From: Streptosporangiales bacterium | GTDB lineage: Bacteria > Actinomycetota > Actinomycetes > Streptosporangiales > WHST01 | DNA: 37,412 nt | Direction: 5' to 3' | Assembly: GCA_009379955.1 (NCBI GenBank) | Contig: WHST01000062.1 | Coordinates: 1-37,412 of the forward strand | Shown here: piece by piece, positions 1 through 13,518 of the stretch | How positions within the stretch are numbered: the first letter of the stretch is position 1 | How the letters are laid out: the number at the start of each line of letters is the position of its first letter | Translations under genes and position numbers: made by a program | Notes under the pieces: generated by a model | Databases searched by the model: none | Told to the model about the DNA's origin: nothing | The model's input: the letters and a program-made list of their open reading frames with translations, nothing else

Positions 1-135
1 CGTGGACTACCTTGAGCATGGGCGTACCTTCCCGAACCAGCGCGCCAACGCTGGCACTGATCAGAACTACATGGGCTTCAGATCATCCTCCGGGAAGGTA
101 CGCCCCTCCCAAAGCACATCCACAGGTTCCGATCA

Positions 136-375
136 TTGCTCGTCGCCGCAATCGAGAAGTTCGAGGCGGACTGGACCCTCTGGTTCGCCGCCCACAGCAT
201 CGTGCCCTATCAGGTTGTCTATGAGGAGTTGGCGGCAGACCCGCTACGCACTGCACACAAAGTGCTCGACTACCTCGGCCTTCACGTTCCGCCGGGCTGG
301 CAACCGGTGATCGGGCACCGTCGACAGGCCGATCAAGTCAACGCCGACTGGGCTGCGAGATTCAGGGCTCACTGA
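136..375 (+). pseudogene. Stf0-type sulfotransferase, C-terminal remnant
   Basis: About 79 codons that read like the last third of a Stf0 (trehalose 2-sulfotransferase type) protein. The helix ending in W-x-x-WFAAH, the segment VPYQVVYEELAADP, a vL-x-yLGL helix and the tail RQAD-x-VNADWAARFR follow the family order. The 3'-PAPS/acceptor N-terminal part (about 170 residues) is missing: in-frame stops lie upstream at 13-15 and 58-60, and no SD precedes the TTG at 136. Upstream codons in the same frame (from about 106) still look family-like, so the break lies a little further left. It sits just left of the tRNA-Ser half at 719 and probably belongs to the same decayed element. Family call is from recalled motifs. 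Confidence 0.6.
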
Positions 376-718
376 ACCATCACACCCAAGCGTCCCGTTG
401 CTGGCCGTGGCAAGCCGGCGTCGCCACAAGCCGTTCCATGACCGGACGATGTGACGGCTCCCGCTGGGGCAGCCCCCGACCCCCCAACGTTCCAGCCTCC
501 TACTCGTCGCCGGGAAGCCAACGAGGCGGTCTTCGACCGGACTCTCCGTCCCCTCTCAGCCTGAGTCAAATACCGTGCGCGAGCTGGCCCGGCTCCCCCT
601 CGGCCGTCTCAGTTTCCGTCTCATTCATACAGGTTCGCCGCCGTTCGTAGTCGCCCGCCGGGTGGTCCTGTCATGCCTGGCGAACGGCTCGGCATGTCCG
701 CGAACAGTCATGCGAGGA
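376..718. other. Non-coding stretch next to attachment scar
   Basis: No convincing gene on either strand. GC is a little lower than in the neighbouring genes. The last 50 bases hold short direct repeats, gtcatgc at 670-676 and 707-713 and gcgaac at 680-685 and 700-705, just left of the tRNA half. Repeats beside a tRNA attachment core can be integrase arm sites, but this is only a suggestion. Confidence 0.4.
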
Positions 719-772
719 CTTGGAAAGCGTGTTGGGGGCAACCCCTCGCGAGTTCGAATCTCGCATCCTCCG
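719..772 (+). pseudogene. 3' half of tRNA-Ser(GGA); probable attachment-site scar
   Basis: From the anticodon loop (cttggaaag, anticodon GGA at 722-724) to the discriminator base this matches a tRNA-Ser. The 3' anticodon strand is gcgtg (727-731), followed by a class II variable arm with a gggg/cccc stem, T arm gcgag-ttcgaat-ctcgc (748-764), acceptor strand atcctcc (765-771) and G772. The 5' half is absent: no ggaggat acceptor strand or D arm lies upstream, and the bases before the loop do not pair with gcgtg. A break exactly at the anticodon loop is what tyrosine-recombinase elements leave when they integrate into a tRNA 3' end and rebuild the gene at their other end. The intact tRNA would then lie to the left, outside the window. 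Confidence 0.75.
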
Positions 773-1108
773 CTCGTCTAACCAGGCACAACGTCGACGG
801 CCGGTCCCAAGCGGGGTCGGCCTCTTGCGTCATCCGTCTCAGTTGGCCATCGTCACCTAAGGGTGCGTTCCCCCTGCCGATCTCGTCAGCCGATTCGTCC
901 TCCTGAGCCTGAACTACCCGGACGGGTCGGTCGTCGAGGTGACCGTCAGCGCAGCCACGGCGATCGCGTGTGTTGTACGTGCCCGCCGCTGATCGTGGGG
1001 GCCGTCTGGGACCGCGGAGTCGAGTACTCGGGACGCGGTCCGTGCGTCTGTCCGGTGGAAAGGGCACCATGTGTCCGAAGCTCGACAGAGAGAACTGTCA
1101 TCGGCGCA
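773..1108. other. Non-coding or decayed stretch
   Basis: No gene I can support. A plus-strand reading frame from about 877 to the TGA at 991-993 (ends in CVVRARR) has a coding-like composition but no start signal and no family I recognise, so it may be another remnant. The rest shows nothing clear on either strand. Confidence 0.35.
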
Positions 1109-1282
1109 TTACACCGATATCGTCTTGTGCGTGCCGATTGGTAGCCAGGTCAGGCTGGCTCGCACGTTGGTTGGTGCGGCGGCGAACGCCTGCTCGATCC
1201 TGTCGCGGCCTTGCCTGAAGTGCCGCCAGCCTTCGTAGTGGACGGGGATGACTGTGCGGGGTTGCAGAAGTTCCCACAGCTC
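1109..1282 (-). pseudogene. MBL-fold metallo-hydrolase, C-terminal remnant
   Basis: Minus-strand frame ending at the stop 1109-1111. It encodes the typical end of actinobacterial MBL-fold hydrolases: LLQPRTVIPVHYEGW, then HFRQGRDRIEQAFAAAP and a final WLPIGT. The H in VHYEGW corresponds to the last metal-site histidine region of the fold. About 200 N-terminal residues with the HxHxDH motif are missing. To the left of about 1280 the frame stays open, but only because it runs antisense to the regulator gene. The fusion point falls inside the 5' end of that regulator, so one deletion probably joined the two genes tail to head. The boundary is uncertain by about 15 bases. Confidence 0.6.
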
Positions 1283-1567
1283 GAGCTCATCCACGCGCCG
1301 ACCCGGTTGTCCATCGTCGCGCTGCTCGCGGCCACCGAGTCCGCGGAGTTCAAGTTCATCCGCGACAGCGTCGGGCTGTCCGACTCGGCGCTGTCCAAAC
1401 AGCTGACCACCCTGGAAGAAGCCGGATACGTCGAAATCCGCAAGGGGTTCGTCGGCAAACGGCCGCGCACCACGGCCCGACTCAACAGCGTCGGACGTGC
1501 CGCGTTCGAACAGCACGTCGCCGCCCTGCAGGAGATCGTTGCCCGAACCGGCACCTCGGTCCTGTAG
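1262..1567 (+). CDS. Winged-helix transcriptional regulator
   Basis: A 101-aa MarR/ArsR-like winged-helix protein of the actinobacterial type with the conserved IHAPTRLSIVALLAA helix (residues 10-24), the recognition helix LSDSALSKQLTTLEEAGYV and the wing KGFVGKRPRT. It probably binds an operator as a dimer and acts on neighbouring genes. The start is doubtful: TTG 1262 gives the usual family length but has only a weak GGGG before it, and the frame stays open to TTG 1211. The first codons overlap the MBL remnant on the other strand, so the original first residues and promoter may have been replaced. The core domain is intact, so it may still be expressed. Confidence 0.7.
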   Translation: MQKFPQLELIHAPTRLSIVALLAATESAEFKFIRDSVGLSDSALSKQLTTLEEAGYVEIRKGFVGKRPRTTARLNSVGRAAFEQHVAALQEIVARTGTSVL

Positions 1568-1641
1568 CCACGAAAACCCAGGCGCCCCGAGTACGGGACC
1601 GCCGCGGTCGAGTGAGGGCTTCACCCCGGGCTGTTCGGACA

Positions 1642-1845
1642 CTAGTGGGATGGCTGCCGCGTCACCATCCGGTCGAAGGCGCGGTCGGTCATCGGCCGGC
1701 GCATCATGATGACCGGCTTGGCGAGGTAGCCGACGGCGTACCTGGTCCTCGGCTTGGCCGACTCGACCGCCTGCCTGATGGTCGCCGCGATCAGCTCGGG
1801 GTCCGACGCCCTGCTCTCCGCGCCGGTGACGAGACAGACCTTCAT
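1642..1845 (-). pseudogene. SDR oxidoreductase with internal deletion
   Basis: A 67-codon ORF that joins two ends of one family. Residues 1-9 (MKVCLVTGA) are the first beta strand and start of the glycine-rich NAD(P) loop of a short-chain dehydrogenase. Residues 14-60 (DPELIAATIRQAVES, PRTRYAVGYLAKP, DRAFDRM) are the C-terminus of the same family. The rest of the cofactor loop, the NNAG motif and the catalytic S-Y-K (about 190 residues) are gone, apparently in frame. ATG 1845 overlaps the methyltransferase stop by the ATGA quartet, which suggests the original SDR was the last gene of this operon. No enzyme activity is expected. Confidence 0.7.
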
Positions 1846-2666
1846 GTCCACTCCTCCTCTGGCGGGCCGAACCGGAAGCGCAACGGCCAGAGCGCGGTCC
1901 GCAGCTGCGGGATCATGTTGGCCAGTCCGGTGAACAGCCGGAATGCCGGCGAGGGTATCCGCCGGTACTCGGCCGCGACCGGCGCATCCTCGAGCAGGGT
2001 GAGCCGCGGGTTGATCCGCTCCAGCTCGTGCGGGTCGGGGCAGCCCCACATGTCGTACGGGGCGAGCCTGACCATCCACGCGGGCATGCCCAGCACGTCG
2101 AACACCATCTCCCCGTACGCGAACCGCTCGGTGACGCGCGCGAGCAGCCGCTCCACGTCGCCGCCGCTGAGGTACATCAGCAGCCCCTCCGCGACGACGA
2201 GCACGGGGCGGCCGGTGACGGGCACCTCGTCCAACCAGCCGAGCTCGGTGACCGAGGAGCCGACCAGATGGTAGTTGTCGCGCCGTGGGTAGAGGCGCCG
2301 GCGCAGCTCGACGACGTCGGGGAAGTCGACGTCGTACCACGGTGCGGTGTCCGGGACGTCGAGGCGGAACGCGCGGCTGTCGAGCCCGCAGCCGAGCTGG
2401 AGCACGGTGGCGTCGGGATGCCTGGCGAGGAACGCACGCGTCCAGGTGTCCAGCCGGTTCGCCCGCACCACGATGGAAGCGTCGCTCGACATCAGCCGCA
2501 CCTTGAGGCGGTTGTACCCGTCGATCCGGTCGAGCACGTCAGCCGACCATTTGTCGCCGAGGATCGACTCCGGCGAGCGGTAGTCGAGCGCCTTGCAGCC
2601 CAGCGTGAACAGCAAGGTCTCCTTGACGCCGCTGAGGTGCACCTTCTCCCGCTGATCGCTCGTCAT
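1842..2666 (-). CDS. SAM-dependent methyltransferase, Ppm1/Tcmp/TylC (LCM) family
   Basis: A 274-aa class I methyltransferase. The SAM motif I is LQLGCGLDSRAF (89-100), motif II YDVDFPDV (111-118) and the post-motif AEGLLMYL (159-166), the signature of the leucine carboxyl methyltransferase-like family common in actinobacterial secondary metabolism. Target unknown. I chose ATG 2666 because aggagg at 2678-2683 lies 11 bases upstream; a longer frame to 2702 has no better signal. The start overlaps the stop of the preceding 55-aa ORF by ATGA, and its stop overlaps the SDR remnant by ATGA, so translation is probably coupled along this strand, downstream of argG. Confidence 0.85.
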   Translation of the reverse strand: MTSDQREKVHLSGVKETLLFTLGCKALDYRSPESILGDKWSADVLDRIDGYNRLKVRLMSSDASIVVRANRLDTWTRAFLARHPDATVLQLGCGLDSRAFRLDVPDTAPWYDVDFPDVVELRRRLYPRRDNYHLVGSSVTELGWLDEVPVTGRPVLVVAEGLLMYLSGGDVERLLARVTERFAYGEMVFDVLGMPAWMVRLAPYDMWGCPDPHELERINPRLTLLEDAPVAAEYRRIPSPAFRLFTGLANMIPQLRTALWPLRFRFGPPEEEWT

Positions 2667-13219: not shown

Positions 13220-13315
13220 GGTGCTGCTGTCCTTCCCGGTGATGCGGTGTCGACTGTTCCGTCGCACCTACAACCCCGGCGGACACGAGAACTCATCGCG
13301 GACCGAGAAAGAGAT

Positions 13316-13370
13316 CGCCCGCGTCCGCGGGGAGACCGATGAAGGTCTTCGACCAGCGCAGACGCGGGCG
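13316..13370 (-). terminator. Hairpin downstream of tRNA-Ser(CGA)
   Basis: Arms cgcccgcgtc (13316-13325) and gacgcgggcg (13361-13370) pair perfectly across 35 bases, starting 7 bases after the tRNA 3' end in the direction of transcription. No T run. The long loop makes it a modest terminator candidate. Confidence 0.4.
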
Positions 13371-13377
13371 ACCGCCG

Positions 13378-13464
13378 CGGTGGCGGTGGGATTTGAACCC
13401 ACGGAGGAGTTGCCCCCTCACACGCTTTCGAGGCGTGCTCCTTCGGCCGCTCGGACACGCCACC
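13378..13464 (-). tRNA. tRNA-Ser(CGA)
   Basis: Complete class II tRNA read on the minus strand: acceptor ggtggcg/cgccacc, D arm with gagcggccgaaggag, anticodon arm cacgc-ctcgaaa-gcgtg with anticodon CGA, long variable arm gaggggg-caa-ctcctc, T arm gtggg-ttcaaat-cccac and discriminator G at 13378. CCA is not encoded. It lies next to tadA, an arrangement common in actinobacteria. It is intact, unlike the tRNA-Ser half at 719. Confidence 0.97.
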
Positions 13465-13518
13465 GTGAGGAAGCCTACCGGAGCCGCTCCCCCGTCCGCG
13501 CACCCCTTTCCCGGCACA

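Follow-up and report, generated by a model that had tools for sequence, protein, structure and literature searches.

A tRNA-Ser(GGA) 3′ half in a Streptosporangiales genome as a probable attR junction in a row of small integrase-less cassettes

The 3′ half of tRNA-Ser(GGA) found at positions 719–772 of the window (the whole 37,412-nucleotide stretch analysed, from a Streptosporangiales bacterium) is a genuine scar of site-specific DNA integration. It is very probably an attR junction within an accreted row of non-autonomous cassettes, most likely integrated in trans by the integrase of an AICE. The original prediction had taken the half for the right end of a single tRNA-integrated element. 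A displaced 3′ half (attR) of DNA to the left was indeed found, but what lies there is a tandem row of two small cassettes and not one element. The order in this genome is the intact tRNA, cassette 1 (1,751 bp), a half, cassette 2 (1,379 bp, IS excluded), and the window half. Cassette 1 carries glutaredoxin-like and TetR genes, and cassette 2 an Stf0 gene that is split by an IS256-type element. The suggestion that the unseen DNA to the left may carry the integrase did not hold, as no PF00589 match was obtained on either of the contigs concerned, C38 and C62. An intact tRNA and a displaced 3′ fragment are present at opposite ends in the same orientation; an integrase encoded within the element, which is usual for such elements and optional for non-autonomous ones, was not found.

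The window half (CTTGGAAAGCGTGTTGGGGGCAACCCCTCGCGAGTTCGAATCTCGCATCCTCCG, plus strand) begins in the anticodon loop and ends with the discriminator base, and its 5′ half is absent. It is identical at 54 of 54 bases to the 3′ halves of the intact tRNA-Ser(GGA) genes of four relatives (G002, G003, G050, and G060) and at 52 of 54 to the intact gene of its own genome on C38, the two mismatches being paired T-stem positions (GCGAG/CTCGC in the window half vs. GAGAG/CTCTC). The variant GAGAG/CTCTC is common to the intact gene and the C38 half, from which the window half differs. The match to the intact gene begins at 719, and base 718 is a and not g, so that the edge of the half is sharp. ARAGORN called no tRNA at 719–772, its sole call in the window being tRNA-Ser(CGA), and an Rfam search of the window at gathering thresholds gave no matches. 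Only three copies of the 3′ half were found in the 6.6-Mb genome, one in the window and two on C38 (one intact, one half). These observations bear out the predicted 3′ half without a 5′ half and its sharp start at the anticodon loop; likewise, the Stf0 remnant noted to its left is the C-terminal piece of the gene (window 151–375), and the short direct repeats noted there include the GTCTCA pair at 606 and 618. The intact tRNA-Ser(GGA) that was to be looked for to the left is present in the same orientation, 3.1 kb off plus one IS. The same half in relatives with unbroken synteny would have argued against integration; the same-genus genomes G001 and G002 have the intact tRNA and zero halves, i.e., an empty site. 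In G002, the ffs–tRNA-Ser(GGA) block (L039:5224–5444) is inverted with respect to dnaX and to the genes common to the window, and hence synteny is not unbroken there.

The window is the complete contig C62 of an assembly of 225 contigs, so nothing lies further left within C62. Contig C38 carries dnaX, a stretch aligning to the ffs (SRP RNA) position of relatives, the intact tRNA-Ser(GGA) (L007:8940–9027), and, 1,751 bp on, the second half; the names dnaX and ffs on C38 are presumed from reading the sequence and not from a family search. C38 terminates in an IS interrupting Stf0, whose N-terminal 169 codons lie on that contig and match Pfam PF09037, and the window opens with the opposite IS end followed by the remaining Stf0. 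Positions 1–150 of the window resemble records annotated as IS256 family transposase (∼77–80%). The IS boundaries were set by copies elsewhere in the genome, at L007:11533 on the C38 side and at window base 141, where two other genomic copies stop. Owing to the IS ends, the identical flanking 9-mer, and the matching Stf0 frame, C38 and C62 are taken to be neighbours, presumably joined by one IS insertion in Stf0, the gap being deduced from the IS ends and not read through. The join is independently supported by the synteny of relatives, in which dnaX–ffs–tRNA-Ser(GGA) and tRNA-Ser(CGA) lie within kilobases. Another copy of the same IS has flanks sharing CTGGTCTCC on contigs C158 and C64 of this genome (L266, L262), which suggests that these two are also neighbours. 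In G001, tRNA-Ser(CGA) and its flanks (∼175 bp) are inverted relative to this genome (L038:11687–11858 vs. window 13311–13483), and the genes on either side keep their orientation.

Table 1. Features of the window that bear on the tRNA-Ser(GGA) half (offsets are counted from the first base of the core).
Feature	Position	Strand	Remarks
IS256-family right end	1..141	+	Contig starts inside the IS; ends ...ATCCACAGGTTCCGATCATTGCTC
9-bp target-site duplication GTCGCCGCA	142..150	+	Also directly left of the IS on C38, L007:11524-11532
Stf0 sulfotransferase C-terminus, 74 codons + stop	151..375	+	Cassette 2 cargo; frame matches the C38 piece across the target-site duplication
P′ arm pair GTCTCAGTTTCCGTCTCA, proposed integrase arm-type sites	606..623	+	Fixed offset -113/-101 from core
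Core, tRNA-Ser(GGA) 3′ half, right end of cassette 2	719..772	+	Sequence identity
Hairpin resembling a tRNA terminator, GGCCGGTCCC AAGC GGGGTCGGCC	799..822	+	Read from sequence; candidate terminator
P-arm motif GTCTCAGTT	836..844	+	+117 from core (117 bases right of the start of the half)
Gene debris, possible third unit or other decayed DNA	1109..1851		
Winged-helix protein	1211-1567	+	PF13601
Short ORF, by eye a short-chain dehydrogenase fragment	1642-1851	-	No Pfam match
tRNA-Ser(CGA), synteny marker	13377..13464	-	In relatives a few kb after tRNA-Ser(GGA)

The core is preceded by a pair of motifs, GTCTCAN6GTCTCA, whose two copies are 12 bases apart and lie 113 and 101 bases before the window half. 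The pair was found at exactly the same offsets at the C38 half and at halves of G035, G054, and G057. This P′ offset is identical in 88 of the 123 halves selected by the pattern, the other main groups being one base off; among halves not picked by the pattern, the motif was at the expected offset in 3 of 27 only, and most were without recognisable arms. A search of 61 genomes with the arm pair alone yielded 32 matches, against a single one when the pattern was reversed. With the core added, 34 matches were obtained, spread over 27 of the 347 genomes searched from the order, and the reversed control had none; the structure occurs in 14 genera of the order. At least 120 stretches with the arm and core pattern were found in a wider contig collection, nearly all of them from actinomycetes among the matches listed, and IMG/VR contained two pattern matches only. 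After intact tRNAs, P motifs cluster at +117 to +120 from the core start. A complete site is present in the circular AICE plasmid pCM32 of Saccharopolyspora endophytica (NZ_KM260754.1), with the P′ pair at −114/−102, the tRNA-Ser(GGA) half, and a P pair at +105/+117. This P′-core-P arrangement is the expected attP of the site, so that the attachment site is the same as that of a known AICE. The pCM32 integrase adjoins attP and is 51% identical to the integrases of AICEs at this tRNA. The GTCTCA motifs are regarded as putative arm-type integrase sites. The same arm pair adjoins tRNA-Ser(GCT) in two genomes and, in another genome, lies before a half similar to tRNA-Arg(CCT) (L057, L060, L055), from which it appears that related integrases may use other tRNA cores; for several other arm pairs lacking a tRNA-Ser(GGA) core, no tRNA explanation was found among those inspected.

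The sequence to the right of the window half bears on whether the scar marks the far end of the insertion, as the original prediction had it. With the P-arm motif at +117, the segment 606–844 has the appearance of a junction inside the array, where two units meet; the right-hand one would be a third unit, now decayed. The window half is hence probably not the outer end of the array, and of that claim the integration scar stands and its terminal position probably does not. Hairpins comparable to the candidate terminator (Table 1) occur downstream of intact tRNAs. No further tRNA half was detected to the right of 772, or of the P-arm motif, by short-word BLAST. Comparison of the segment 850–1650 with 60 relatives gave matches to the winged-helix part only, none of them at this locus but on other contigs or at other positions. 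In G003, a diverged tRNA-Ser half without arm motifs lies 583 bp past the intact gene (L040:2762–2815) and probably represents an older, decayed junction.

The site is common to integrase-bearing AICEs (mostly 8.5–17 kb) and to 49 integrase-less cassettes, which occur up to six in tandem. The ∼14-kb units at this tRNA, in which an integrase beside the tRNA (attL) is accompanied by Prim-Pol/DUF3987 or DUF3631 and FtsK/SpoIIIE genes, are AICEs. The combination by which AICEs are recognised, i.e., an integrase, a replication gene (RepSA, RepAM, or Prim-Pol), and FtsK/SpoIIIE, was found in part or whole in relatives at the same site and in neither unit 1 nor unit 2 of this genome, whose contents are only the glutaredoxin-like, TetR, and Stf0 genes. 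Over all loci, the 12 inter-core intervals with a near-complete integrase had a median length of 13.9 kb, vs. 2.65 kb (range 0.56–6.3 kb) for the 49 without integrase, a contrast biased toward short integrase-less intervals because the arm pattern served to choose many of the loci, which were truncated at 8 kb. Contig C327 of G081 (L126) harbors seven tRNA-Ser(GGA) cores in 13 kb, with six integrase-less cassettes of 0.7–3.8 kb. Integrase-less units encode, among other proteins, PIN-domain and VapB pairs, WYL helicases, HNH nucleases, type I restriction proteins, and PADLOC candidate families. In G057, a 22-kb unit between the tRNA and a half (L043:1230 to L044:3333) carries two type I restriction systems and an AbiEii-like ATPase, with no integrase beside the tRNA. 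Gene pairs of ∼70–95 and 140 codons end ∼125–130 bp before the core in many cassettes that differ in their other cargo (L137, L174, L180, L197, L198, L209) and are of the VapB/PIN type where Pfam recognises them (L200, L209). One cassette was found, at 98.5% identity, after the intact tRNA in one strain (L180) and after a half in another (L174).

It is proposed that a tyrosine integrase recombines in the anticodon loop of tRNA-Ser(GGA), the window half being an attR-type junction. In the attP of each incoming circle, the P′ arms (GTCTCAN6GTCTCA) would be followed at ∼113 bp by a duplicate of the tRNA 3′ half as core, with one or more P arms ∼117 bp after the core start. Recombination would join the 5′ half of the host gene to the 3′ half brought in by the element and so restore a functional tRNA gene, and at each insertion the old 3′ half would be displaced to the right. 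Repeated insertion would yield the row of intact tRNA, cassette 1, half, cassette 2, window half, and the P-arm remnant of an older unit, the IS256-type element having struck cassette 2 later. The window half would then be an older tRNA 3′ end displaced by later insertions. The cassettes would be non-autonomous and use the attachment site of the AICEs at the same tRNA, an AICE integrase acting in trans having most likely inserted them. The T-stem of tRNA-Ser(GGA) varies across three species of one genus (GAGAG, AAGGG, and GCGAG; region of L007:8940–9027), as expected if elements replace the 3′ half. Differences per site in tRNA-Ser(GGA) were 0.023 in the 5′ half vs. 0.071 in the 3′ half, and in the control tRNA-Ser(CGA) 0.155 vs. 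0.128, with end gaps inflating the values; this comparison would fit 3′-half replacement, the sample of 8 genomes being too small to lean on. The nearest relatives of the family integrase in this genome are at 44% identity, with an in-frame TAG (C14), and at 33% (C138), and no functional cognate integrase was found in the genome. Hence, the array is probably stranded and the cassettes may be immobile today.

The junction anatomy would be the same if the units were decayed AICEs, i.e., strict CIMEs in which deletion removed the integrase and the genes for replication and transfer but spared attL and attR, and which were never mobilised in trans; the two accounts differ only in the route to integrase-less units. 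The accepted view is that such remnants arise as CIMEs through deletion and then accrete (PMC5704250), decay of AICEs that share one tRNA is described for Streptomyces (PMC9513070), and partial integrases occur in some units of relatives (L110, L115, L117). The units of this genome do keep attL and attR in the absence of integration and transfer genes. However, neither of the two retains any AICE gene or remnant of one, and elsewhere the units can be as short as 0.56 kb, their cargo genes are complete and often stop ∼125–130 bp before the core, VapBC-like modules are common to different cargos, and units recur 98% identical at different array positions. Decay is considered a less likely origin of the row than insertion in trans.

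Loss of the integrase and cargo from one larger element between the intact tRNA and the window half, with the C38 half as an internal duplication, would agree with the T-stem variant common to the intact gene and the C38 half and different in the window half. The C38 half, however, has its own P′ pair at −113/−101, which indicates that each unit has a complete right end, and other loci often show tandem units whose cores are nearly identical (L126); a single element is considered improbable. Three copies of the 3′ half in one region could also have arisen without any integrating element, if the 3′ end of the tRNA gene had been duplicated segmentally or a tRNA copy had become inactive. The sharp start at the anticodon loop, the arm pair at a fixed distance, and the occurrence of the structure in 14 genera leave this reading hardly any probability, and the complete attP in circular pCM32 contradicts it.

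Displaced tRNA fragments, AICEs, CIMEs, and accretion are already known (PMC4383910, PMC3218068, PMC5704250, PMC9513070), including AICE accretion at tRNA-Arg (PMC9513070) and tandem accretion of CIMEs (PMC5704250). In the open-access literature, no description was found of long arrays of small integrase-less units at the AICE site in tRNA-Ser(GGA), nor of an integron-like arrangement of these known pieces (AICE, CIME, accretion). As a tentative generalisation, which has somewhat less than an even chance of being correct, tRNA-Ser(GGA) in actinomycetes could anchor integron-like arrays of small cassettes that are non-autonomous, have conserved P′ and P arms, often carry VapBC-like or defence-like genes, and are inserted serially by an AICE-borne integrase in trans, each insertion swapping the tRNA 3′ half. 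If the cassettes move by a shared integrase, they would constitute an actinomycete gene-capture system with an integron-like layout and a phage-type tRNA att site, and such a system would carry genes for toxin–antitoxin pairs and restriction, along with candidate defence genes, in many genera. Arrays without a nearby integrase, which integrase-based island finders would miss, can be found by the arm-plus-core pattern.

In chromosomal integrons, cassettes of one to a few genes stand in a row, each junction bears a recombination site, and several cassettes carry toxin–antitoxin pairs. The arrays resemble them in these features and presumably in entry at one fixed end. They differ in that no integron integrase was seen and in that, in place of attC hairpins, phage-type att sites of a tRNA gene form the junctions; membership among the integrons was rejected, as the junctions are tRNA-half cores with arm motifs and no tyrosine recombinase is present on C38 or C62. 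With AICEs such as pCM32, the units have in common a P′-core-P site whose core is the tRNA-Ser(GGA) 3′ half, whereas the units of this genome measure 1.4–1.8 kb and lack any integrase, replication, or transfer gene. In the tRNA-targeted genomic islands of Islander, a regenerated tRNA and a displaced fragment mark the ends, as they do here, and a tyrosine integrase is part of the description (PMC4383910), unlike the units of this genome, which contain no integrase gene. CIMEs and their accretion resemble the arrays in that attL and attR are kept, integration and transfer genes are absent, and several units are stacked at one tRNA. Unlike CIMEs, small complete cargo units recur here across array positions and genomes with conserved arms, and they look like non-autonomous cassettes rather than only decay products.
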